Shown here: piece by piece, positions 2,883 through 64,000 of the stretch
Layout: each line of letters opens with the position of its first letter
Position numbering within the stretch: position 1 is the stretch's first letter
Source of the DNA: Encephalitozoon hellem ATCC 50504
Lineage: Eukaryota > Microsporidia > Unikaryonidae
Length of the DNA stretch: 64,000 nt
Assembly (NCBI RefSeq): GCF_000277815.2
Contig: NC_018479.1
Span: 62,001-126,000, forward strand
Direction: 5' to 3'
Program-made: the position numbers and the translations under genes
The notes under the pieces: generated by a model
Told to the model about the DNA's origin: nothing
Seen by the model: the letters and a program-made list of their open reading frames with translations, nothing else
Database searches by the model: none

Positions 2883-5702
2883 TCATATTTTCTGGACAAC
2901 TCTCTCTCCATTGAGGACAGTAGAGATGGACTCTTTCTGGTGGTTGGTCATTGCAGAAATAATTTTCTCTCCATAGGACCCAGCTACAGGGGAAGAGAGT
3001 ATGGAAGAGATGTACCCAAATGGCTCGAAGTGGTCCAGGGCCGACTCAAAGTAAATATCCTCTTCTAAGATATCCATGGTATCAAGATCATCGCTTGCAT
3101 CAAGATAATCTTCTTCTTCTGAATCTACCGAAGACATGGCAGCGTCTTCGTTTTCCTTCATCTGATTTCTGAGCTTTATAGCTGCAGGGAGTGTGGTGAT
3201 TGTTGACACAAGAACCTTGTTGAGGTTGTGGATGTCGAGCTCCGGAAGAGTTCCGTCCTGAAGTCTGCAAATCGTGCCCACGAACAGGGTGCATATCTTC
3301 TTGTCATGAACCCTCTTGAACCTGCTTTTCTGCTCAAAGAATTTTTCAAAGAACGTTTGGAAGTACTTCTGCATTCTAAGAATTTGGATGGTTTCACTTG
3401 GCCTCAGAATAAAACAATTCATTACAACTTCAAGTGCATATACCATTGCTGCGCTACTCTCGTCAATACTGTCGCTAGACATTGCAACAGAAATGAAGAA
3501 AGACAACCTTGAAGGGTCCTTGCAAAGAACTTCGTTTCCTATGTTCAAAATTATCGATTCGATAATTCGGCATCCACTTATAAACTCCTCGTCAGAAAGA
3601 TTCTCCTCGTTGCATAAACAGAAGTTTGAAATTAAAGAGTAGATGCTTCCCAGTATGTTTGAATCAATAATGCTTGTTTTTCCATATGTTATGAAGTTGT
3701 CAATCAGGTTAGCCACTTCTTCGGAATATATTCCTACCTCGTCTGCAGGGAGATTCAATATCATCTGCAGAAGGCCCCACATGGATCCTTCTATCTCCTT
3801 GATCATGAAGACATAGGCATTGAGTATGTCCAGGGCCTCGTGGTAGAAGTCTGATTTTTCCTCCTTTAGAATGAAGGACAGTACATCATATGAGTTCATG
3901 TATGAATGTCTAAGTGTGGGTGATCTTTGATTGAGCGATAGAACAAGATTCTCCATGCTTCTAAGGAAGCCTGAAACGACCAACAGCTTGTTTTCCCCCT
4001 CATCGCTTTCATTCATCAGATGCGACAGGGTGATTCTTGATATTGAGCGGACAAGTTCCGGTGCATACTTCGATATTTCGTCAGGATAGTATCCGATAAT
4101 CGAGTCGAGCAATATTGTAAGAGACTCAAAGTCATATATGTTTGAGAGGCTTAGTATGGACTCTACTGTTTCTGGGATCAGCTCCTTGAATTTCTCAGAG
4201 GCCATTTCGTTAAACAAGAAGAATGACATGGCAAGAGTGCCTTCCACCTTGAGCACCTTGTGATCAGACTTCATAAGTTTGTGTACACTGTCCAATGCCT
4301 CGAATACTATGGTGTTGATGGGAAGGTCCTCTTGTATTTCCGACAGGAAGTAGCAGGCCTGAGACTTTAGGGCCAGCGAGTTTCCACAGAGGGAGGGAAT
4401 CACATGGTTCACCATAACATACACAACCACGCTCCTAGCCTTCCTCAGCAGTGTCGACTTTATCTTTGCTAACAGGAAGAGAGATCCATATGCTAACCTT
4501 ATATTGTCAGGCGTCGGGCTTTCTTTGCACTTCCCGAGAACAGAGACAAGGTAGTTAATGATACCCTGGAAGGTCTCTTCCTTCTGCTTGACCTTCGATA
4601 TGATATCGCAAAACAGTATACTAAGGCTGTTTCTTAGGTCATTTCCAAAGAAGCTGTATTTCTCCCTCAAGTATTTATCGGGATCGTTCTCAATGTCGTC
4701 CTCTTCCGAATCAGACAGAGAGTACACTGGCAGAATGTATCCAGAAATAAGATAAAACAGATCAGGCTCCATGTAACGAAAAAACTCTGAGTTCGATGTT
4801 AGAAGTACAAAAAAGTCTATGGCATACAGCTCAATGTCCGTGGTCTCCTCCGATCTTTCTTGGATGATCTTGATGAATGTTGTGTATATCATCTGGAATC
4901 TGTTGATGTCGGTAATGTACTCGGTGAGTTCGTTGTTTTTGTAGAATCTCTTGATTCCCTTGCTGCAGGCCTTGTACATAAAGTATGCTGCCCATTTTCT
5001 GCTTTCAAGTAGATTCTCATCAGTACCTCTCAGATTCAAAATCCGGAGCGACAAGTTGAATGCATATGAAAAAGTGCCTATTGCGGAAAGGAAGTCGGGA
5101 ATCGAGTAGTAACAGTAGGATTTCGCTAGCACAACCATCCCAATCTTAACCATCCCATAGTTCCCCGCCTCTAGAAACTCGTACACCTTCTCAAGGACAT
5201 CCTTTCCTGCAGTATTGTACATCAACCCCAGAACTTGTTCAAGATTATACTTTATCTTCTCTGCATCGAATATCTTCTCGTACATATTCAACGCAGTAAA
5301 AACGCTGTTTGTGTCAGCGCTTTTCATAAGCTCGGACGCCTTCTGGAATAGCCCATTCAACTCATTCAACTTCTCCGTATTGAAGATATGCACAATAATT
5401 GCATCGTATGCCACTCTTGTTATCTCGTCTCCATACAAAAACAAATCCAGTATGTTTTCTATAAGATATTTCCGAACTTCAGAATACGTGCTGTCCTTCC
5501 ATTGCTTGATTATTGCATTCTTGAAGTAGATCGTTGCTATTCTCTTCAGTATGGCATCAGAATCTTTCATGCATGTGTGCGGAAGAGACATCACAAACTC
5601 CGGATCCCTCTCTAAATTCATCAGCATAGACTCCGCCGCATTTCTCTTTCCAAGATCAATATCAATCGTCTGCAGAAATATTTGGCGTGTTTCTTCTCTC
5701 AT
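2883..5702 (-). CDS. Importin-beta family karyopherin (importin-7/8, Nmd5/Sxm1 type)
   Basis: 939 aa from the ATG at 5702. A HEAT-repeat nuclear transport receptor. The N-terminus (MREETRQIFLQTI, then AAESMLMNLE and YFKNAIIKQW) matches an importin-beta N-terminal Ran-binding domain. The rest is helical repeats, with an acidic C-terminal stretch (SEEEDYLDASDDLD, about 880-895) followed by a hydrophobic end, as in Nmd5, Sxm1 and importin-7. An in-frame ATG at 5759 and a TTG-only extension to 5828 exist, but homology starts at 5702 and TGCCCTC immediately precedes that ATG. The family is clear; which importin-7/8 paralogue it equals cannot be told by eye. Likely cargoes are ribosomal proteins or histones by family analogy. 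Confidence 0.8.
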   Translation of the reverse strand: MREETRQIFLQTIDIDLGKRNAAESMLMNLERDPEFVMSLPHTCMKDSDAILKRIATIYFKNAIIKQWKDSTYSEVRKYLIENILDLFLYGDEITRVAYDAIIVHIFNTEKLNELNGLFQKASELMKSADTNSVFTALNMYEKIFDAEKIKYNLEQVLGLMYNTAGKDVLEKVYEFLEAGNYGMVKIGMVVLAKSYCYYSIPDFLSAIGTFSYAFNLSLRILNLRGTDENLLESRKWAAYFMYKACSKGIKRFYKNNELTEYITDINRFQMIYTTFIKIIQERSEETTDIELYAIDFFVLLTSNSEFFRYMEPDLFYLISGYILPVYSLSDSEEDDIENDPDKYLREKYSFFGNDLRNSLSILFCDIISKVKQKEETFQGIINYLVSVLGKCKESPTPDNIRLAYGSLFLLAKIKSTLLRKARSVVVYVMVNHVIPSLCGNSLALKSQACYFLSEIQEDLPINTIVFEALDSVHKLMKSDHKVLKVEGTLAMSFFLFNEMASEKFKELIPETVESILSLSNIYDFESLTILLDSIIGYYPDEISKYAPELVRSISRITLSHLMNESDEGENKLLVVSGFLRSMENLVLSLNQRSPTLRHSYMNSYDVLSFILKEEKSDFYHEALDILNAYVFMIKEIEGSMWGLLQMILNLPADEVGIYSEEVANLIDNFITYGKTSIIDSNILGSIYSLISNFCLCNEENLSDEEFISGCRIIESIILNIGNEVLCKDPSRLSFFISVAMSSDSIDESSAAMVYALEVVMNCFILRPSETIQILRMQKYFQTFFEKFFEQKSRFKRVHDKKICTLFVGTICRLQDGTLPELDIHNLNKVLVSTITTLPAAIKLRNQMKENEDAAMSSVDSEEEDYLDASDDLDTMDILEEDIYFESALDHFEPFGYISSILSSPVAGSYGEKIISAMTNHQKESISTVLNGERVVQKI

Positions 5703-38293: not shown

Positions 38294-38324
38294 GCATGGT
38301 ACTGGGGCTGTTTATTGAGCTGGG

Positions 38325-38762
38325 TCACTTGTTGGAAACGCTGAAGAAGAAAACAAAGGCTGTTGAATACACCGAATAGTATATGAAAAACAGGATTGAT
38401 GCCGAGATGGCTGAGACTGACATGGTGGAGCACTCGCTGCAATTTTTGTATCCCCTCCTCATTACAAACACATTGTTCATGACTATGAAGAATGCTATAA
38501 GGGTCATGATCTTTGCAGCGACATGAAGGACTTAAATTAAAATGATCACTTACCATTAATGATTCTGAAGTATAGTTTTCCCTTTCTTGCCATTGGCTTT
38601 GTAAGAGACACGAGTGCTGAGTATGTGACTATTGACATAAGAACCTGCCCTGCATAGAAGTATCTCTGAGCCATGAATATTGTGAAGATCAGTGCAAAGA
38701 GCGTTGTGATCTTTGAATTAGTATGGAGCACTTACCATTTCCAGTTTGTCTTTGACGAGCAT
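38325..38762 (-). CDS. Four-pass membrane protein, three exons
   Basis: Minus-strand exons 38762-38736, 38710-38554 and 38530-38325 join to 390 nt, coding 129 aa plus stop. The first exon gives MLVKDKLEM; splicing is phase 0 at intron 1 and phase 1 at intron 2. Both introns have GTAAGTG donors and TAATT(T/C)-type acceptors. The ATG at 38762 follows GAAGCCCCTAACA. The protein has about four hydrophobic spans: ITTLFALIFTIF, LMSIVTYSALVSL, IMTLIAFFIVMNNVFV, and ILFFIYYSVYSTAFVFFF, with a CSEC pair in the last loop. Without splicing, only two fragments of about 60 codons are visible. The family is not recognised; a small ER or Golgi membrane factor is plausible. Confidence 0.8.
38531..38553 (-). 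other. Spliceosomal intron 2 (23 nt)
   Basis: In transcript direction it begins GTAAGTG and ends TTTTAATTTAAG, with the branch and acceptor merged. 23 nt is at the lower size limit known for introns in this genus. Removal joins G to TC to make a Val codon and restores the frame through exon 3. Confidence 0.8.
38711..38735 (-). other. Spliceosomal intron 1 (25 nt)
   Basis: In transcript direction it begins GTAAGTG and ends ACTAATTCAAAG. Removal leaves exon 1 (9 codons) in frame with exon 2. The retained reading opens at a GTG only, so splicing is needed to give a proper start. Confidence 0.8.
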
Positions 38763-38906
38763 TGTTAGGGGCTTCAGTCTGATTGGTTTGTTGACGAGAC
38801 GTATGAAGGGATATCTTCGAGGCCTAACCGAAGGGAGGCATCTTTGAAATGGACAACTGCCGAGTGTCTGTGGCGAAATGAAGTAAAAAATATTTCCAGG
38901 ATCCCT

Positions 38907-44359: not shown

Positions 44360-44418
44360 GCTCCAAGGGATCTCCTCACCAGCATATTTCAGTATTCTTC
44401 TCTCTCCCCTGAGGAAGA

Positions 44419-44769
44419 ATGAATCTAAAAGAATCCAGCGTGGTGGTCATGTCGATAGGCATGTTTGTTTTTCTTGCAGGTGCCGTCCTTCTGATGGACA
44501 GAGCACTGATGATATCTGGTAATCTCCTGATAATCATAGGCATTTCTCTTCTGGCAAGGTCCAGGATGCTTACCTTGCTACGCCCCGAGAAAATACAAGG
44601 CATGGCGATCTTTACAATGGGCATACTGTTTCTGGTTTACAGGTTTTTGGCATTTGGCTTTCTTTTGGAGATTCTGGGCCTGTTCTTGCTTTTAAGAGAT
44701 AGCATTCCTACGTTTAGAAGCGTTCTGAGAAGCTTGGTGTTTGGAAAGTTAGAAAGACTTATGAGATAG
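44419..44769 (+). CDS. GOT1: Golgi transport protein Got1
   Basis: 116 aa (yeast 138), with four hydrophobic spans. Got1 is an evolutionarily conserved small membrane protein in ER-Golgi vesicle traffic. The signature ALMISGNLLIIIGISLL is nearly canonical, followed by PEKIQGMAIFTMGILFL and a C-terminal LEILGLFLLLRDSIP. The ATG follows CCCCTGAGGAAGA. It diverges from the LRR gene across 59 bp and converges with the glycerol-3-phosphate dehydrogenase gene across 27 bp. Confidence 0.9.
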   Translation: MNLKESSVVVMSIGMFVFLAGAVLLMDRALMISGNLLIIIGISLLARSRMLTLLRPEKIQGMAIFTMGILFLVYRFLAFGFLLEILGLFLLLRDSIPTFRSVLRSLVFGKLERLMR

Positions 44770-44796
44770 ATCTGCGCTGAATTAAAATCGATGAAT

Positions 44797-47767: not shown

Positions 47768-49702
47768 ATTATGAAGACCAATAGTGGTTGAGTATAGATG
47801 GTGAAAGCTTTTCAAACACGGTCATTTAATTCCAAGTGCCTTGTTAATCTCTTTCTCAAAGAACTTCTCAATAACAGGCCTCCTCTTCTTCCCGGTCGGC
47901 GTAACAAACTCCCCAGAACAGAGGGCCTCAAGCCCCTGCCGCACAACAATAACACGCCACGGAATCTCAAGCTTCGTTATCTTCTTCTGCTTAAACAGCC
48001 TCTCCCCAGTTGAAAGAACATGCTGGAAAATCTCCTTGTCGCTCTTCTGCGTCCCAGGACACACAGCAATCGCAACAATCTTGTCACTGTCAGACCTCCG
48101 CGGAATGCACATGTCCTGCACAACCTCGCCGTCGCTGTAAAGCACCTCAAGCTTCTCGGGGTCAATGTACTCCCCCTGAGACGTCTTGAACCCGTCCTTC
48201 ACACGCCCAATCACAGAAAACATCCCAGTCCTCGTGTCAAACATCCCAATGTCCCCAGTCCGGAGCCATCCGTCAGAAGTAAACAGCTCGCGCGTCTCCT
48301 CAGGCCTCTTGAAGTACCCCTGCGTCACATTGTCGCCCCGAAGCAGAATCTCCCCAACCCTGCACGACGGATACCGCCGCACATACTCAGACCTCAGCTC
48401 GTCGCTTATCTCCCCAAGCTTCACCTCGTTCGACGGAAACGGAATCCCAACATTGTCGTACACGTGGTTGTCGAGAGGCTGCACAATCCCCGCACCAACA
48501 TTCTCAGTCTGCCCATACCCTTGGAAAATCCTGCACGAAAGCACAGCCTGCATGTACACCAGGACATCCTTCTTCAGAGGCGCAGACCCACACAGAATCT
48601 TCTCAATCCTCCCCCCAAACTCCCTCGATATCCGGTTGAACACAAGCCAGTCAAGGAACCGGTTCTTCAGCTCCCCCTTCACAGCTACACCCCACATCTT
48701 GTACCAGAGCGCCGCACGGAAAACCCCCCGCACAAAAATGTTCTTCTGCCGCACATTCTCCTCAATCTTCTCCTTAAATAGGTTCAGCACACGCGGAACA
48801 GAAATAATAAACGTCGGCTTCGCAACAAGGTAGTCCTCCTTGATCTCCCGAGGATTCCCCCGGTAGAACACTATCTTGCATCCATACGCCATCGAAATGT
48901 TGATGCATATCCTCTCCATCACATGTGCCAGAGGCAGGTACGACAGGTACACATCGTCCCGCGAAAGACGCACCATCTCCCCCTCGTTGGATCCGCGGAA
49001 TATCCCTGCAACACCAGAAATAAAGTTCTTGTGCGTCAGCATCACTCCCTTCGGCTTCCCAGACGTCCCGCTCGTGTAGCATATCGTCGCAAGGTCGTCC
49101 CCGCTTGGATACCGGGTGCCGTCCACATCCACGTCAGTAGACACAACATCCCAAAAGTACTCCACCCGGACACCGACATTCTCAAGCATCTCCTTGACAT
49201 TCTCGTCACGGTCCATCAGAATCACACACGAAAGCTTCCCCCTGCTCTCAAGAACACTCTCAAGCAGCAGCTTGGCCTTGTCCGCAGACGCAATACACAC
49301 CTTCATCTCAGTCTCCTCAAGAATCAGCTGCACATTCTCGGGCGAAAACGTCGAGTACAGCGGGACATTCGTGCACCCGCACATGTACGACGCCATCTCC
49401 GCAACAATCCACTCGTACCTGTTCACAGAGTAGATTCCGACAATGTCCTTTGGCTCTGTCATCTTGCTGAGGAAGCTTGCAATGCCCTTGACATCTCTCA
49501 GGGTCTCGCTTGCAGACTTGTACACAACCTCTCCGCCGGATATTGTCCCAAAGAGGGGGTCGCTGCCCGCTGTGCTGCACCTGGTGAGGAAGATCTCCAA
49601 GACTGTCTTCGACCCGTCTGGTGCACACACAACACCCTGCTGGAAGTTGACGTGCTGCACAGACCCATCGTCCATAACTCTGATTCTCCCCATTATATCC
49701 CT
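47768..49702 (-). repeat. Inverted duplication, left arm
   Basis: 1,935 bp. Position x here pairs with 101742 minus x in the right arm with no length change. The arm holds a full acyl-CoA synthetase gene, 54 bp after its stop and 9 bp before its start. The only difference I found is 48464 against 53278 (His or Gln codon). Beyond the ends, the flanks are unrelated. Confidence 0.95.
47822..49693 (-). CDS. Long-chain acyl-CoA synthetase, copy A
   Basis: 623 aa from the ATG at 49693, preceded by CCCTAGGGATATA; an upstream frame to 49810 runs into YSH1 and is not used. Activates long-chain fatty acids to acyl-CoA through an acyl-adenylate; such parasites rely on host lipids. The AMP-binding loop is YTSGTSGKPKGVMLTHKN (about 210-227), with YGQTENVGAG, GWLRTGDIGMFD and the C-terminal lid GEYIDPEKLE. 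The C-terminus has the conserved KKRRPVIEKFF block. No signal peptide. Codons are strongly G/C-ending compared with neighbours. Residue 410 is His. Confidence 0.93.
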   Translation of the reverse strand: MGRIRVMDDGSVQHVNFQQGVVCAPDGSKTVLEIFLTRCSTAGSDPLFGTISGGEVVYKSASETLRDVKGIASFLSKMTEPKDIVGIYSVNRYEWIVAEMASYMCGCTNVPLYSTFSPENVQLILEETEMKVCIASADKAKLLLESVLESRGKLSCVILMDRDENVKEMLENVGVRVEYFWDVVSTDVDVDGTRYPSGDDLATICYTSGTSGKPKGVMLTHKNFISGVAGIFRGSNEGEMVRLSRDDVYLSYLPLAHVMERICINISMAYGCKIVFYRGNPREIKEDYLVAKPTFIISVPRVLNLFKEKIEENVRQKNIFVRGVFRAALWYKMWGVAVKGELKNRFLDWLVFNRISREFGGRIEKILCGSAPLKKDVLVYMQAVLSCRIFQGYGQTENVGAGIVQPLDNHVYDNVGIPFPSNEVKLGEISDELRSEYVRRYPSCRVGEILLRGDNVTQGYFKRPEETRELFTSDGWLRTGDIGMFDTRTGMFSVIGRVKDGFKTSQGEYIDPEKLEVLYSDGEVVQDMCIPRRSDSDKIVAIAVCPGTQKSDKEIFQHVLSTGERLFKQKKITKLEIPWRVIVVRQGLEALCSGEFVTPTGKKRRPVIEKFFEKEINKALGIK

Positions 49703-49770: not shown

Positions 49771-51702
49771 TTAGACTTCCGAATATATCACCTCTATCTT
49801 TCGCATGCATTCATTTATTCTGTCGACTATAGAAGAGTCGCCTGTCGCTCCTTCAGCACTAATACATGCCTCTCTGCACCCGTTCTTAACTCTTATAACA
49901 CCCTCATCCTTCTCAATCACAAAGTAATTCTTTAGAACACTAATCAAAAGCTCATCCTTTCCCATCTTGCTCAGCTTAACACTCTTTGTCTTCAACCCAA
50001 TCCCAGATATCATCCTGCTTATCGATATCGCCAGGACATCGTCTGCATAGTTGCTCTTCCATTCAAGCACAACCTCTTGTCCATCCAGCCTAACATGGAC
50101 ATTACCTATCATAAACCCAGAATCAACCTCGACAAGTTCAGAAAACCCATCCATAAGAACTTGCTTCAGCAGCATCGCCGTGGAATTGTACGGTATCCTT
50201 TGCCTTTCATATATGCACATCTCCTTGTATTTGGCCTCAACCAGCTCATCTCTCTTGTAAATCCTTATGTCGTCCTCCGTCCCTATGATAATCCCCTCAA
50301 ACTCTCCTTCAACATTGGTAAATATCTTCGCCTCATTGTCCTTGACAAGATCAAACTCCGCCTCCTCCCCATTCCGGAGGGTATAAAGCACCATCTCAAC
50401 CCCCTTCTTCTCATTTCTTTGCTGAATAACATTCCTAAGCCTTTGCATCTCATTCATCTCTCCATGCACAAAAAAGAGATGCTTCGGCTGGCACTCCTCA
50501 ATAAACTGGCTGTTCTGCGTGAAGTCCACATGTGCACTGAACGAGATATATTCTACAGACATATTGAGCCGAAGCTTCTTTCCATTCAGCGCCTCTATCT
50601 CCTTCGGCTCGCTGAGTATTTCCTTTGCAAGTGTTCCATCCACACAATAGCCAGGTATTATCACCGCATTCCTGCTGTCAGAGCACCACCGCTCAAAAAG
50701 ATCCCTTGAAAGCCCACTTTGAAGCATCCCAGGACTAGCCATTATCACACATGGCCCCTCGTCGTCAAACGAGTCTATGCCCTTAAGATTCTTGACATAC
50801 TTAAACGCAAAAGGATTCCTGACAAGGCTCAGCTTCTGGATTCTCTCGTTCATCATCCCTATGTATGTCTGGTATACCCCCATACACCTCTTTGCCAGTG
50901 CAGATGCATAGTAGATGGGAATCTTCTGCAACGAAGCATTCGAGCCCCAATGCTCTTCAAGAATAAGAAGCAGCTCCTGTGCTCTTCCAAGGGCAAACAC
51001 AGGAAGCAGGCACCTTCCACCCCTCTGAACAACATTCTGGACAATACTTGTAAACCTTCCTTCTCTTTCAGCCCTTGGAAGGTGGCATTGCACTCCGTAT
51101 GTGGATTCTGTTATCAGTGCGTCTATTTTGCATCCAGGTGACTCGGCCGCTTTGAGGTGCCTGTCCTCTTCTCTGCTGAAGTCTCCTGTGTAAAGAACCT
51201 TGCTTTTCTCTATTTCAATCAGAAACATTGCTGCCCCCAGTACATGCCCTGCATTCAGCGCCTTGACTTTAATCCCTTTCACATTAACCTCTTGATGGTA
51301 ATCAATCGGTATGATTCTATCGTAACACTTGACCAGATCGGTTTCCGTGTAGAAGTCTGCATCCGATGCTGCATTTATAAGCCTGATGTAATCGTTCAGA
51401 AGCCATTTAAGAATGGCCTTTGTAGGATGTGTCATATAGACCTTTCCTTTGAAGCTTGTTTTTTCTGTTAGAAATGGTAGAGCAGCAGCATGGTCGAGAT
51501 GGAAGTGTGTGATAAATATAGCATCGATCTTCGAGAGGTCCACAAGATCCAAAAAGGGAAGAGATGCCACCCCGGTATATGCAGGATGTACCCCGCAGTC
51601 CAGCATTATAGTCCTACCCCCGCATTCAACAATAACACACGACCTTCCAACTTCATTTCCTGCCCCAAGAGGCATTATCTTTATCTTCTCATTGGAGAAC
51701 AT
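49771..51702 (-). CDS. YSH1: mRNA 3'-end endonuclease CPSF73
   Basis: 643 aa (yeast 779). Metallo-beta-lactamase/beta-CASP nuclease that cuts pre-mRNA before polyadenylation. Zinc motifs: HFHLDHAA near residues 65-72, GHVLGAAMF, TGDFSREEDRHL and STYG. The beta-CASP region includes PVFALGRAQELLLIL and SAHVDFTQNSQFI; HGE near 412 is the final ligand. A C-terminal domain of about 200 aa follows. It alone occupies the spacer between the two acyl-CoA synthetase arms. ATG follows CTCCCCTAGA. The YSH1 rather than Cft2 assignment rests on intact catalytic residues. Confidence 0.93.
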   Translation of the reverse strand: MFSNEKIKIMPLGAGNEVGRSCVIVECGGRTIMLDCGVHPAYTGVASLPFLDLVDLSKIDAIFITHFHLDHAAALPFLTEKTSFKGKVYMTHPTKAILKWLLNDYIRLINAASDADFYTETDLVKCYDRIIPIDYHQEVNVKGIKVKALNAGHVLGAAMFLIEIEKSKVLYTGDFSREEDRHLKAAESPGCKIDALITESTYGVQCHLPRAEREGRFTSIVQNVVQRGGRCLLPVFALGRAQELLLILEEHWGSNASLQKIPIYYASALAKRCMGVYQTYIGMMNERIQKLSLVRNPFAFKYVKNLKGIDSFDDEGPCVIMASPGMLQSGLSRDLFERWCSDSRNAVIIPGYCVDGTLAKEILSEPKEIEALNGKKLRLNMSVEYISFSAHVDFTQNSQFIEECQPKHLFFVHGEMNEMQRLRNVIQQRNEKKGVEMVLYTLRNGEEAEFDLVKDNEAKIFTNVEGEFEGIIIGTEDDIRIYKRDELVEAKYKEMCIYERQRIPYNSTAMLLKQVLMDGFSELVEVDSGFMIGNVHVRLDGQEVVLEWKSNYADDVLAISISRMISGIGLKTKSVKLSKMGKDELLISVLKNYFVIEKDEGVIRVKNGCREACISAEGATGDSSIVDRINECMRKIEVIYSEV

Positions 51703-51847
51703 TCTAGGGGAGCAGAAGTAGATTGAATTTCATGCAGCCGCTTCTTCTTTTTGGCGAAGACGAACATAAAAAACCACCTAGTATTAATGAGCAGATGCCA
51801 AATATGGATAATTTGAAAATATATAATAATGGATAGACTAAGGTGCA

Positions 51848-53920
51848 ATGGGAGGGATTAGGTTTACTGCAGTTAAATCGTTTTTTGCCAGTGTTGTGAT
51901 ACTTAGTAGTCTTGTGTTCGCAGATTATGCTCAAGTAACTAATGGCAAGGGCATTAAGGGTTTTGTACCTGATGCTCCGAAAGGTTCTATGAAGGCAGGC
52001 AGCCCAGGTAGCAATGAAAGTGCTATTGTTTCTAATCTCAGGGATATAATGGGGAGAATCAGAGTTATGGACGATGGGTCTGTGCAGCACGTCAACTTCC
52101 AGCAGGGTGTTGTGTGTGCACCAGACGGGTCGAAGACAGTCTTGGAGATCTTCCTCACCAGGTGCAGCACAGCGGGCAGCGACCCCCTCTTTGGGACAAT
52201 ATCCGGCGGAGAGGTTGTGTACAAGTCTGCAAGCGAGACCCTGAGAGATGTCAAGGGCATTGCAAGCTTCCTCAGCAAGATGACAGAGCCAAAGGACATT
52301 GTCGGAATCTACTCTGTGAACAGGTACGAGTGGATTGTTGCGGAGATGGCGTCGTACATGTGCGGGTGCACGAATGTCCCGCTGTACTCGACGTTTTCGC
52401 CCGAGAATGTGCAGCTGATTCTTGAGGAGACTGAGATGAAGGTGTGTATTGCGTCTGCGGACAAGGCCAAGCTGCTGCTTGAGAGTGTTCTTGAGAGCAG
52501 GGGGAAGCTTTCGTGTGTGATTCTGATGGACCGTGACGAGAATGTCAAGGAGATGCTTGAGAATGTCGGTGTCCGGGTGGAGTACTTTTGGGATGTTGTG
52601 TCTACTGACGTGGATGTGGACGGCACCCGGTATCCAAGCGGGGACGACCTTGCGACGATATGCTACACGAGCGGGACGTCTGGGAAGCCGAAGGGAGTGA
52701 TGCTGACGCACAAGAACTTTATTTCTGGTGTTGCAGGGATATTCCGCGGATCCAACGAGGGGGAGATGGTGCGTCTTTCGCGGGACGATGTGTACCTGTC
52801 GTACCTGCCTCTGGCACATGTGATGGAGAGGATATGCATCAACATTTCGATGGCGTATGGATGCAAGATAGTGTTCTACCGGGGGAATCCTCGGGAGATC
52901 AAGGAGGACTACCTTGTTGCGAAGCCGACGTTTATTATTTCTGTTCCGCGTGTGCTGAACCTATTTAAGGAGAAGATTGAGGAGAATGTGCGGCAGAAGA
53001 ACATTTTTGTGCGGGGGGTTTTCCGTGCGGCGCTCTGGTACAAGATGTGGGGTGTAGCTGTGAAGGGGGAGCTGAAGAACCGGTTCCTTGACTGGCTTGT
53101 GTTCAACCGGATATCGAGGGAGTTTGGGGGGAGGATTGAGAAGATTCTGTGTGGGTCTGCGCCTCTGAAGAAGGATGTCCTGGTGTACATGCAGGCTGTG
53201 CTTTCGTGCAGGATTTTCCAAGGGTATGGGCAGACTGAGAATGTTGGTGCGGGGATTGTGCAGCCTCTCGACAACCAGGTGTACGACAATGTTGGGATTC
53301 CGTTTCCGTCGAACGAGGTGAAGCTTGGGGAGATAAGCGACGAGCTGAGGTCTGAGTATGTGCGGCGGTATCCGTCGTGCAGGGTTGGGGAGATTCTGCT
53401 TCGGGGCGACAATGTGACGCAGGGGTACTTCAAGAGGCCTGAGGAGACGCGCGAGCTGTTTACTTCTGACGGATGGCTCCGGACTGGGGACATTGGGATG
53501 TTTGACACGAGGACTGGGATGTTTTCTGTGATTGGGCGTGTGAAGGACGGGTTCAAGACGTCTCAGGGGGAGTACATTGACCCCGAGAAGCTTGAGGTGC
53601 TTTACAGCGACGGCGAGGTTGTGCAGGACATGTGCATTCCGCGGAGGTCTGACAGTGACAAGATTGTTGCGATTGCTGTGTGTCCTGGGACGCAGAAGAG
53701 CGACAAGGAGATTTTCCAGCATGTTCTTTCAACTGGGGAGAGGCTGTTTAAGCAGAAGAAGATAACGAAGCTTGAGATTCCGTGGCGTGTTATTGTTGTG
53801 CGGCAGGGGCTTGAGGCCCTCTGTTCTGGGGAGTTTGTTACGCCGACCGGGAAGAAGAGGAGGCCTGTTATTGAGAAGTTCTTTGAGAAAGAGATTAACA
53901 AGGCACTTGGAATTAAATGA
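51848..53920 (+). CDS. Acyl-CoA synthetase copy B with fused secretory leader
   Basis: 690 aa. Residues 68-690 equal copy A except residue 477 (Gln for His). Residues 1-64 are unrelated: MGGIRFTAVKSFFASVVILS starts a textbook signal peptide, with a predicted cut after SSLVFA, then a Gly/Ser/Ala-rich stretch to SNL. The homology to copy A begins exactly at the codon after residue 64, 9 bp before copy A's ATG. No CCC run precedes 51848, but AATATATAATAA lies near 51822-51833; the internal ATG at 52049 keeps its GGGATATA signal and could be used instead. Whether the leader is translated is not known; if it is, the enzyme would enter the ER. The leader may be the head of an unidentified secreted protein gene. 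Confidence 0.8.
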   Translation: MGGIRFTAVKSFFASVVILSSLVFADYAQVTNGKGIKGFVPDAPKGSMKAGSPGSNESAIVSNLRDIMGRIRVMDDGSVQHVNFQQGVVCAPDGSKTVLEIFLTRCSTAGSDPLFGTISGGEVVYKSASETLRDVKGIASFLSKMTEPKDIVGIYSVNRYEWIVAEMASYMCGCTNVPLYSTFSPENVQLILEETEMKVCIASADKAKLLLESVLESRGKLSCVILMDRDENVKEMLENVGVRVEYFWDVVSTDVDVDGTRYPSGDDLATICYTSGTSGKPKGVMLTHKNFISGVAGIFRGSNEGEMVRLSRDDVYLSYLPLAHVMERICINISMAYGCKIVFYRGNPREIKEDYLVAKPTFIISVPRVLNLFKEKIEENVRQKNIFVRGVFRAALWYKMWGVAVKGELKNRFLDWLVFNRISREFGGRIEKILCGSAPLKKDVLVYMQAVLSCRIFQGYGQTENVGAGIVQPLDNQVYDNVGIPFPSNEVKLGEISDELRSEYVRRYPSCRVGEILLRGDNVTQGYFKRPEETRELFTSDGWLRTGDIGMFDTRTGMFSVIGRVKDGFKTSQGEYIDPEKLEVLYSDGEVVQDMCIPRRSDSDKIVAIAVCPGTQKSDKEIFQHVLSTGERLFKQKKITKLEIPWRVIVVRQGLEALCSGEFVTPTGKKRRPVIEKFFEKEINKALGIK

Positions 53921-53974
53921 CCGTGTTTGAAAAGCTTTCACCATCTATACTCAACCACTATTGGTCTTCATAAT
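52040..53974 (+). repeat. Inverted duplication, right arm
   Basis: 1,935 bp, reverse complement of 47768-49702. The upstream junction joins CTC to AGGGATATAATG; copy A has CCT at the same place. The downstream end falls in TTCATAAT before the RNR1 promoter. Identity covers untranslated DNA as well as codons, so selection on protein cannot explain it. Confidence 0.95.
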
Positions 53975-61991: not shown

Positions 61992-62116
61992 CCCAAACAA
62001 AGAATTTATAGGACCGATCAAACTCGTCATTTTTCACTTGTTTTAGATGACAGTAAACTTTGAGGGCTGAAGACATCAAAAAACGGAAACATACCGACTT
62101 GTCAAAAGGAGACAGT

Positions 62117-62587
62117 TTAATAAGTAATTATCCACTTCCCTCCAACCCGTGTGATCTCTTCCTTTGCTGATGGTGTGAAATATCTAGCCTTGACAACTAT
62201 CGGCCTCTCCAAAGGCAACTTTCCCCCAACCACAACATGATATCCAAACTCCCTGACATCGATAACAGGTACCTTATCGGCATTGTCTAGGAACTCGTAT
62301 CTCTGCTCCTTCGGGATCATCCCCCATAGCCTTGCAGAGCTGATCGGGCGCGCGTACTCAGAGTTCTCCTTTCTGTGGTAGACCCTCATTCCTCTCTTTC
62401 CATGGTAGTCCGGGTGGAATCTTGTGAAAAGAGTCTTCATGTGGCTGAACCCTCCAGCAAGCCCACGGCCCCCAGAGTGCTTTCTGTGCTTCCCCACACG
62501 CCCATATCCATGCGATACATGACCACGCAGCTTCCTAGTCTTTTTAACATGCTCTGCCTTTAAATTAGCTCATACACCACTTACCAT
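62117..62587 (-). CDS. RPL28: Ribosomal protein uL15 (L27a/RPL28), two exons
   Basis: Exon 1 is only the ATG (62587-62585); exon 2 is 62557-62117. Joined they code 147 aa (yeast 149): [20 protein letters not shown], then the [18 protein letters not shown] block and the C-terminal [15 protein letters not shown]. Without splicing the frame would start only at an internal codon and lose the N-terminus. ATG follows TATCCCTGAA with AAATTTT further up. The intron right after the ATG is the usual pattern for ribosomal protein genes in this genus. Confidence 0.95.
62558..62584 (-). other. Spliceosomal intron of RPL28 (27 nt)
   Basis: In transcript direction it starts GTAAGTGGTG and ends GCTAATTTAAAG. 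Removal joins ATG directly to GCAGAGCAT, restoring the conserved uL15 N-terminus. Compare the two introns at 38711-38735 and 38531-38553, which share the donor and the AATT(T/C)-AAG acceptor. Confidence 0.92.
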
Positions 62588-62733
62588 TTCAGGGATAAAA
62601 TTTTTCCTTGCTCAAGTATAAGCAGCCTGATGCTTTCGCCATGCTGAATGCTACTATGCAACCGCTAGGCTGGTGCATGATGCAAGATGTGAAACTGCTG
62701 TTTGAGCAGGGTTCAAAAGCAGTGTAAGAGTAG
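62588..62733. promoter_or_regulatory. Hairpin-rich divergent spacer
   Basis: The 146 bp between the RPL28 and kinesin starts. The RPL28 side has TATCCCTGAA and AAATTTT. Toward kinesin there are three consecutive inverted repeats: CAGCCT/AGGCTG (62623-62628 with 62667-62672), TGCAT/ATGCA (about 62674-62684) and CTGCT/AGCAG (62695-62699 with 62705-62709). This could be promoter structure or a small RNA; no conserved RNA boxes were found. Confidence 0.35.
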
Positions 62734-64000
62734 ATGGGAATGCACTCCACACACAAGAAGATCAAGGTCAGCATAAGGATAAGGCCTGCAGCAGGGGGCG
62801 GCGAGGTATGGAAGACATCTGAGGACGGCCTGTGGCATGTCCACGGACAGAAAAAGGTGAGGTACAACGGATTCAGAAGTATCCTGACAAACATGACAAA
62901 TGCAGAGGTCTATAAGGTGTGTGTAAGGGAGGAGATCCAGAAGTTTCTGAACGAAGAGAACTGTACGGTGTTTGCATACGGGCAGACTGGCTCAGGAAAA
63001 ACATACACAATGCTTGGAGGGGACGAGGAAGGGATTATAAAGCTAGCCATAAGGGATATCCTGGATAGAAGGCCTGTGGGGATATCGTACTTGGAGATCT
63101 ACAACGAAAAGCTCTTTGATCTTTCAAACAACAACGAGGTCCAGATGTTCAGTGTTGAGAAGAGGAATGTGATTTCGAACCTGTGGGTTGAGTATGTGGA
63201 TAAGTGGGAGGATGTTGTGTCTTTTATTGAGCGGTGCGAGAAGAATAGGAAGTTTGGGACGACGGAGTTCAACACAAAGAGCAGCAGGTCGCATACTGTG
63301 GTCCAGGTCACATACAGCAGTAACAACAGAGTTAGGACACTGAACATGATAGACCTTGCTGGGAGTGAAAGGGCAAGCAGGTCGACGGACAGAAGGAAGG
63401 AGGGGTCGTTTATCAATAGAAGTCTCCTTGCGCTCTGCACGATTGTCAACAATATAGGGAATGGGAAGTACTTGGGGTTTCGAGACTCAAAGCTGACACG
63501 GGTACTTCAGCCGTCGCTGGACGGACGTACGAATCTTGTTGCAATCTGCACTCTGTCGCCTCACGAGGATTGCATTGAGGAGTCTGTGAGCACGCTAAAG
63601 TTTGCAGCCAGGCTATGCAATCTTGAGCTGAAGATTGAGGAGACACTGATACCCGACGAGAATCCAAGGTATGCCGGAGACATGCCGGGAAACGATTTCC
63701 GGCGCGGACTGAAACACAGATGCTGCAATAGGTTTCACTCTGAGGCTGGTAAAGATGTAAGAAGCATTTTGGAGAGAATGGAGTCCATGGCTCTTGAGAA
63801 ATGTCTTGGGCCTTATGAATCACCGAGGGTCAAAGGCCCGGAGGGAAGGGCTAGGGACGATAAGGTGTGTGACGAAAAGGATTCTATATCCAGGACGCTT
63901 GGCGCCTTTGGGTCGATGATTATGGAGAATCTTCAATGCAAGATTGAGCTTATGGAAGAATTGAATGCAATCAATAACGATAGAATACATTTATTGGAGA
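62734..64000 (+). CDS. Kinesin motor protein, 3' end cut by window
   Basis: At least 422 codons, open through the window end. A motor domain occupies about residues 9-315: KKIKVSIRIRP at the start, P-loop FAYGQTGSGKTYTM near 91-104, switch I NTKSSRSHTVVQV, switch II DLAGSERAS, and FRDSKLTRVLQPSLDG. STLKFAARLCNLELKIEE ends the motor. An N-terminal motor without extension and the form of the neck suggest a kinesin-7 (CENP-E/Kip2-like), but family assignment by eye is uncertain. The tail visible so far is charged, with a possible coiled coil beginning at the end. The start could also be the ATG at 62740. Confidence 0.9.
   Translation, partial: MGMHSTHKKIKVSIRIRPAAGGGEVWKTSEDGLWHVHGQKKVRYNGFRSILTNMTNAEVYKVCVREEIQKFLNEENCTVFAYGQTGSGKTYTMLGGDEEGIIKLAIRDILDRRPVGISYLEIYNEKLFDLSNNNEVQMFSVEKRNVISNLWVEYVDKWEDVVSFIERCEKNRKFGTTEFNTKSSRSHTVVQVTYSSNNRVRTLNMIDLAGSERASRSTDRRKEGSFINRSLLALCTIVNNIGNGKYLGFRDSKLTRVLQPSLDGRTNLVAICTLSPHEDCIEESVSTLKFAARLCNLELKIEETLIPDENPRYAGDMPGNDFRRGLKHRCCNRFHSEAGKDVRSILERMESMALEKCLGPYESPRVKGPEGRARDDKVCDEKDSISRTLGAFGSMIMENLQCKIELMEELNAINNDRIHLLE

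Follow-up and report, generated by a model that had tools for sequence, protein, structure and literature searches.

A putative membrane-targeting leader on one of two near-identical acyl-CoA synthetase genes in Encephalitozoon hellem

Signal-peptide hexokinases are the known theme in microsporidia to which the present locus is best compared. Hexokinases with acquired N-terminal signal peptides are described for T. hominis, A. locustae and N. bombycis and are predicted in four Encephalitozoon species, and three of the four T. hominis hexokinases carry a hydrophobic N-terminal leader (PMC6460350). A second related system is the ACSL/Faa group of acyl-CoA synthetases, notably ACSL3 and ACSL4, whose location at membranes is linked to a hydrophobic region at the N-terminus (PMC6696099). 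The third is formed by inverted duplicates under concerted evolution.

The gene pair described here, from E. hellem ATCC 50504, shares features with all of these systems. Like the microsporidian hexokinases, it presents a normally cytosolic metabolic enzyme with a hydrophobic N-terminal leader; unlike them, the enzyme is an acyl-CoA synthetase, its twin enzyme domains are virtually identical, and the leader is far less conserved than the enzyme. The enzyme belongs to the same AMP-binding family as the ACSL/Faa proteins, and its leader may be comparable with the hydrophobic N-terminal region of mammalian ACSL3; unlike the ACSL forms, the twins are two separate genes rather than splice forms, and such a leader occurs only in Encephalitozoon among 61 homologues. 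As in inverted duplicates under concerted evolution, the arms are almost fully identical, GC3 is raised and the edges are sharp; unlike in those duplicates, the unconverted edge bears a putative targeting signal, so that the two addresses would differ. Little is known of the means by which microsporidia, which rely on the lipids of their hosts, capture fatty acids and activate them. An acyl-CoA synthetase directed to a membrane or to secretion, beside a soluble twin, would, if true, give a concrete, testable handle on this process. In the titles listed and the passages opened, no literature on this pair or its leader was found; an E. cuniculi long chain fatty acid CoA ligase is named as a BLASTX match of an Edhazardia EST (PMC2474625).

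The window, meaning the whole stretch of 64,000 nucleotides that was analysed, corresponds to C11:62001-126000 of a 12-contig assembly (2,251,784 bases). Its features of interest are collected in Table 1.

Table 1 Positions in the window of the two acyl-CoA synthetase copies, the inverted repeat and neighbouring features
Feature	Position	Strand	Description
Copy B ORF	51848-53920	+	690 aa
Leader of copy B	51848..52039	+	64 codons: basic start, hydrophobic core at residues 11-25, possible cleavage site between VFA and DY, polar Gly/Ser/Ala-rich linker
Arg-Asp-Ile codons common to both copies	52040..52048	+	nine bases with GGG; 5' edge of the inverted repeat
Copy B enzyme, predicted long-chain acyl-CoA synthetase (AMP-binding)	52049..53920	+	complete 623-aa form from the internal ATG; PF00501 and alignment
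Copy A enzyme, predicted acyl-CoA synthetase without leader	47822..49693	-	623 aa; one residue different from copy B
Inverted repeat arm A	47768..49702	-	1935 bases
Inverted repeat arm B	52040..53974	+	1935 bases; single mismatch at 53278
A/T-rich stretch (0.88) in a promoter-like position, -40 to -16 relative to the leader ATG	51808..51832	+	
CPSF73-like endonuclease gene (spacer of the inverted repeat)	49771..51702	-	divergent from copy B; 145-base gap

Copies A and B are predicted long-chain acyl-CoA synthetases by their AMP-binding domain and motifs. The PF00501 match in copy B spans residues 127-528 and scores 238 bits against a curated cut-off of 29.9 (E = 1.5e-70). The protein also contains YTSGTSGKPKG and DGWLRTGDIG, most columns of which are invariant across 11 aligned sequences and which we take to be the ATP-binding loop (TSGTSG-PKG) and the fatty-acyl-CoA synthetase signature. 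The assembly yielded no further close copy; next in line were two stretches (28% and 23% identical) within one frame on contig C5. A large-subunit ribonucleotide reductase gene lies 3' of copy B.

The arms match as an inverted repeat at 1934 of 1935 bases, the sole difference being CAG (53278, copy B) versus CAC (48464, copy A), that is, Gln versus His. Identity sets in at 52040, nine bases or three codons 5' of the internal ATG at 52049, and continues to 53974, 54 bases beyond the stop; both repeat edges are exact (52040/49702 and 53974/47768), near-identity stops sharply there, and the flanks are unrelated. As stated in the initial annotation, copy A has no counterpart to the 64 codons of copy B (51848-52039), the ungapped upstream identity being 26-29%, about the chance level. 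The same annotation placed the junction of leader and enzyme in frame at a codon boundary, and the frame is indeed open across 51848-53920; such a junction is a one-in-three event and means little alone.

The leader looks coding. Purines occupy codon positions 1, 2 and 3 in 47, 28 and 22 of 63 cases (chi-square p = 2e-5). Among 5000 stop-free shuffles, none attained the contrast between positions 1 and 3, and three attained the four-base chi-square. The sense frame also has the top score among the six frames. An open frame of 64 codons is by itself weak evidence (p = 0.022 in sequence of intergenic composition). As a control of periodicity, 11 stretches of at least 120 bases left as intergenic were used, nine of which gave purine p > 0.05 (one of them 0.051), the exceptions being 38294-38906 and 44360-44796; in the four-base test 4 of the 11 fell below 0.05, namely these two, 51703-51847 (0.030) and 62031-64000. 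The stretches 38294-38906 and 44360-44796, which are outside the gene list, have codon-like periodicity with p < 0.01, and some of the periodic "intergenic" control stretches probably hold unlisted genes. The codon periodicity of the leader, together with the related leaders of two other species, goes well beyond chance.

At the same time, the leader is atypical among the genes of this genome in its codon usage. Its GC3s of 0.274 was equalled or undercut by none of 754 stretches in the window and by 1 of 664 elsewhere, and its coding score, reached by 123 of 2000 stop-free shuffles, was below that of the first codons of all 36 window genes. Note that the control set, these 36 genes of the window plus 110 sampled ORFs, was delimited mechanically from the first ATG, without curation. 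In-frame open extensions do arise by accident, as in the 39 codons upstream of copy A; this extension (to 49810) was rejected as a leader on account of its overlap with the end of the CPSF73 gene and its non-significant periodicity (p = 0.098). An antisense ORF of 371 aa that covers the leader and the beginning of copy B (51704-52819, minus strand) was likewise rejected as a gene, its frame scoring -0.19 over the leader versus -0.09 for the sense frame, and is probably a by-product of GC-rich third positions.

Related leaders were found in two other species of the genus. The acyl-CoA synthetases of E. romaleae, E. cuniculi and E. intestinalis are 79%, 67% and 66% identical to the present enzyme, and the E. 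cuniculi protein P0004 (693 aa) and the E. intestinalis protein P0005 (689 aa) carry leaders of 70 and 66 residues with the same junction. All three leaders begin with MG-x-[I/V]-R-F, followed by a hydrophobic stretch of 15-19 residues. Their pairwise scores lay at z 4.6-7.9 over shuffles (12 tests of 2000 each, including shuffles that kept the first 25 residues apart from the rest), and in no test did more than 2 of the 2000 shuffles attain the observed score. The leaders of P0004 and P0005 are known here as annotated proteins, not as DNA, and conservation of the DNA as such could contribute to this likeness; annotation, in turn, cannot produce in-frame stretches that are both open and alike in three species. 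In E. romaleae, alone among the three sister species on record, the protein (P0003, 623 aa, two member sequences) lacks a leader, and it may be the equivalent of copy A, a shorter annotation or a case of loss; the relatives were drawn from clusters at 90% identity, which hide copy number.

Because only P0004 and P0005 among the 61 homologues besides copy B have a similar leader (judged by eye), the leader looks, on present evidence, to have arisen in an Encephalitozoon ancestor, an old feature and not a fresh fusion. The enzymes of Ordospora, Nosema and Vairimorpha lack it. Other hydrophobic starts were seen in P0047 (51 extra residues) and in P0058 (Hamiltosporidium), and a few more homologues have unrelated extensions. 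The initial annotation had proposed that the leader was captured in frame by one copy, a gene birth by fusion, and that a search with it might reveal the secreted donor protein. This proposal is not supported: related leaders are present at the same junction in P0004 and P0005, and the search returned only the leader itself in the own genome at E <= 10, and no donor among proteins of about 380-1210 aa in two protein searches. Recent capture from a donor gene was rejected on both grounds.

The explanation that we consider fairly likely is that a translated leader, which arose in an Encephalitozoon ancestor, targets copy B to membranes, with copy A as its soluble twin and with gene conversion keeping the two enzymes identical. 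The extension at the N-terminus would have arisen on an acyl-CoA synthetase gene of such an ancestor and evolved fast. Its hydrophobic start would bring copy B to the ER or secretory membranes, acting as an anchor or as a signal peptide that is cut off, and copy A, the inverted leaderless twin across the CPSF73 gene, would supply the soluble enzyme. Conversion between the arms would hold the enzyme domains identical, and the leader and the upstream regions, lying outside the converted tract, would be free to diverge. Against this explanation stand the leader ATG without a CCC or GGG motif, the off-type codons of the leader, the leaderless E. romaleae protein and the weaker core of the E. intestinalis leader. 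If correct, the locus points to a way in which gene conversion can leave an enzyme unchanged and yet permit its address to differ.

The targeting features of the leader were judged by simple measures: charge, the 15-residue Kyte-Doolittle mean and the residues at -3/-1. Its composition is as first described, with a basic start (no Asp or Glu and two basic residues in residues 1-25), a hydrophobic core with a Kyte-Doolittle mean of 2.23 over 15 residues, Val-Phe-Ala before Asp-Tyr (Val and Ala at -3/-1, candidate cut at residue 25/26), and a Gly/Ser/Ala-rich stretch (15 of the 39 residues at 26-64, versus 19% in the enzyme). A comparably strong core with a preceding basic residue was present in 7 of 415 short spurious-type frames and in 2 of 121 long ORFs, and with the core cut-off lowered to 1.91, in 14 of 415 and 4 of 121, respectively. 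The core of the E. cuniculi leader reaches 2.31; that of E. intestinalis, with an Asp inside, stands at 1.907 (1.9067), just under the 1.91 cut-off. An AlphaFold2 model built from 11 sequences was poor (mean pLDDT 59, with residues 1-65 below 50). By these measures the start of the leader resembles a signal peptide or an anchor and would probably steer copy B to a membrane or the secretory route, and the pair most likely represents two isoforms, membrane-targeted (B) and soluble (A). Two differently addressed forms, as proposed in the initial annotation, are plausible because a real in-frame leader with a signal-peptide-like start is present on one copy; a recent fusion is not supported.

Which of the two forms the membrane targeting would take depends on the fate of the leader. 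An uncleaved leader may keep the copy B enzyme attached to the ER on its cytosolic side, where fatty acids would be activated at the membrane and nothing secreted, and to this form of the preferred explanation we give somewhat less than an even chance. It agrees with the build of the three proteins, each of which has 15-19 hydrophobic residues in a row and then a polar linker and a complete enzyme. An acyl-CoA synthetase needs ATP and CoA, both of which are cytosolic, and this also speaks for an anchor. Anchored ACSL forms are, moreover, known (PMC6696099). On the other side, the 15-residue core is short, and in E. hellem a good -3/-1 site (Val, Ala) precedes Asp-Tyr. The alternative form, in which the leader is cleaved and copy B translocated, its site of action being the parasite surface, the vacuole or the host, appears doubtful to us, although regions of n/h/c type can be recognised in copy B and although the signal peptides of E. 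cuniculi and other hexokinases work in a yeast secretion trap (PMC6460350). A screen for over-represented signal peptides found hexokinase and two other families; no acyl-CoA synthetase family is named in that section of the article (PMC3879972). The supply of CoA and ATP outside the cell would be unexplained, and the E. intestinalis leader is weak.

The GC3 of the arms bears on how the twins have remained identical. The GC3s of the enzyme, 0.676, is above that of all 141 background genes (0.509 +/- 0.045, maximum 0.626), which are the 146 control ORFs minus those inside the known duplicated stretches of loci L019 and L022. GC3 changes abruptly at the repeat edge, being 0.25-0.29 in the leader and 0.63 or higher beyond it, so the leader as a whole (GC3 0.274) is outside the high-GC3 tract. 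High expression, considered as the cause, is a poor explanation because the tubulin, GTP_EFTU-family and single-copy ribosomal genes show no such rise. GC3s was 0.445-0.542 in the tubulins (3 of 3 loci) and in translation GTPases of the GTP_EFTU family (6 of 8 loci, those with an assignable ORF, the 859-aa EF2-type locus L027 and L031 being left out for want of one), and the ribosomal S7- and S12/S23-family genes, each found once, had 0.481 and 0.475.

Other near-identical pairs occur in the assembly. The RPS25 genes form an inverted pair (L022:1136-1536 and 2955-3355, C8 at about 101.1-103.4 kb) with 401-base arms that are 100% identical, and their GC3s of 0.689 is the highest of the genes measured; both 109-aa copies lie within longer open frames, of 129 aa and, for the second copy, 254 aa. 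An Arf-like GTPase pair, L041 (C8:194201-195801) and L042 (C11:4501-6201), is situated near two contig ends and is 100% identical over at least 1085 bases (GC3s 0.592). The stretches L038 (C7:64069-68226) and L039 (C4:188329-192486), the latter near a contig end, share a 2608-base segment with 99.73% identity, whose three ORFs have GC3s of 0.663 (no Pfam match), 0.529 and 0.527. The ribosomal L3 genes, L043 (C9:110854-111924) and L044 (C3:131323-132393), are 99.42% identical over 1207 bases (GC3s 0.633 and 0.628).

Tested jointly, six genes of near-identical pairs exceed the background GC3 (p = 0.0006; L3 not included), as do RPS25, the Arf-like GTPase and the acyl-CoA synthetase alone (p = 0.002; the acyl-CoA synthetase is itself one of these three). 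Note that the C4/C7 pair was found through its high GC3, that the L3 pair, encountered afterwards through its family name, stands outside the test, and that two of the seven genes, both in the C4/C7 segment, are not raised (0.529 and 0.527). From these observations we infer that GC-biased gene conversion probably homogenised the arms, as the simplest account. Such a GC3 signature is offered for spotting other converted gene pairs in compact genomes.

A recent inverted duplication in the E. hellem lineage, starting nine bases before the internal ATG, could also have made copy A and left the leader behind. Near-identity of the arms is expected from a very recent event too, and on each side the limit of the repeat lies near that of the gene. 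Nevertheless, an arm GC3s so far above the background needs time and a biased process, the same bias is seen in the other near-identical pairs, copy A already has its own CCC and GGG and an A/T-rich start region, and a leaderless protein is on record in E. romaleae. We regard a recent duplication as rather unlikely, weakened as it is by the ribosomal gene GC3 control.

There remains the start of copy B itself. 5' RACE in E. cuniculi revealed 5'UTRs shorter than 7 nt; the start is preceded by a motif resembling CCC, in some cases GGG, and further upstream by an AAATTT or A-rich element. The original annotation of E. cuniculi took the first AUG as the start, and 364 of 1996 annotated starts were judged wrong by the CCC/GGG-type signal (PMC2803860). 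In the window, CCC or GGG occurs within 15 bases before the start in 20 of the 36 genes and neither occurs in 16. The copy A start has both, the internal ATG of copy B has GGG at -8 to -6, and neither motif is present in the 15 bases before the leader ATG. The A+T fraction at -40 to -16 reaches 0.92 before copy A and 0.88 before the leader ATG, both above the values of all 36 window genes (maximum 0.76), against 0.68 before the internal ATG. The statement in the initial annotation that the internal ATG keeps its own start signal holds only in part, for the GGG; the CCC and the A/T-rich region of copy A are outside the repeat. Because the internal ATG has GGG and the leader ATG a strong A/T-rich region, both starts of copy B are possible, dual use included.

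If the internal ATG at 52049 were the true start, the upstream frame would be untranslated promoter DNA and both copies would encode the same soluble enzyme. The GGG is placed as most E. cuniculi starts would have it, with CCC/GGG before most starts and 5'UTRs of less than 7 nt (PMC2803860); the leader ATG without such a motif, the leaderless E. romaleae protein, the off-type codon usage and the accidental in-frame extensions at copy A (39 codons) and around the 109-aa RPS25 genes (129- and 254-aa frames) point the same way. This alternative is nevertheless unlikely in our estimation in view of the codon-position periodicity, the in-frame related leaders of two other species and the strong A/T-rich region, which precedes the leader ATG and not the internal one.

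The preferred explanation can be extended to a bolder one, which we put forward as improbable: twins equalised by conversion would be sent to the two sides of a membrane by a genus-specific leader, copy B being exported to trap host fatty acids as acyl-CoA, and the second, internal start might give both forms. The exported enzyme would be a lipid counterpart of the secreted microsporidian hexokinases, and the supply of ATP and CoA is the problem of export to the host interface. As regards the repeat itself, the telomere-to-telomere Encephalitozoon paper plots repeats with a bit-score floor of 5,000 (PMC10158259), which, by our estimate, a 1.9-kb repeat such as this one would miss.
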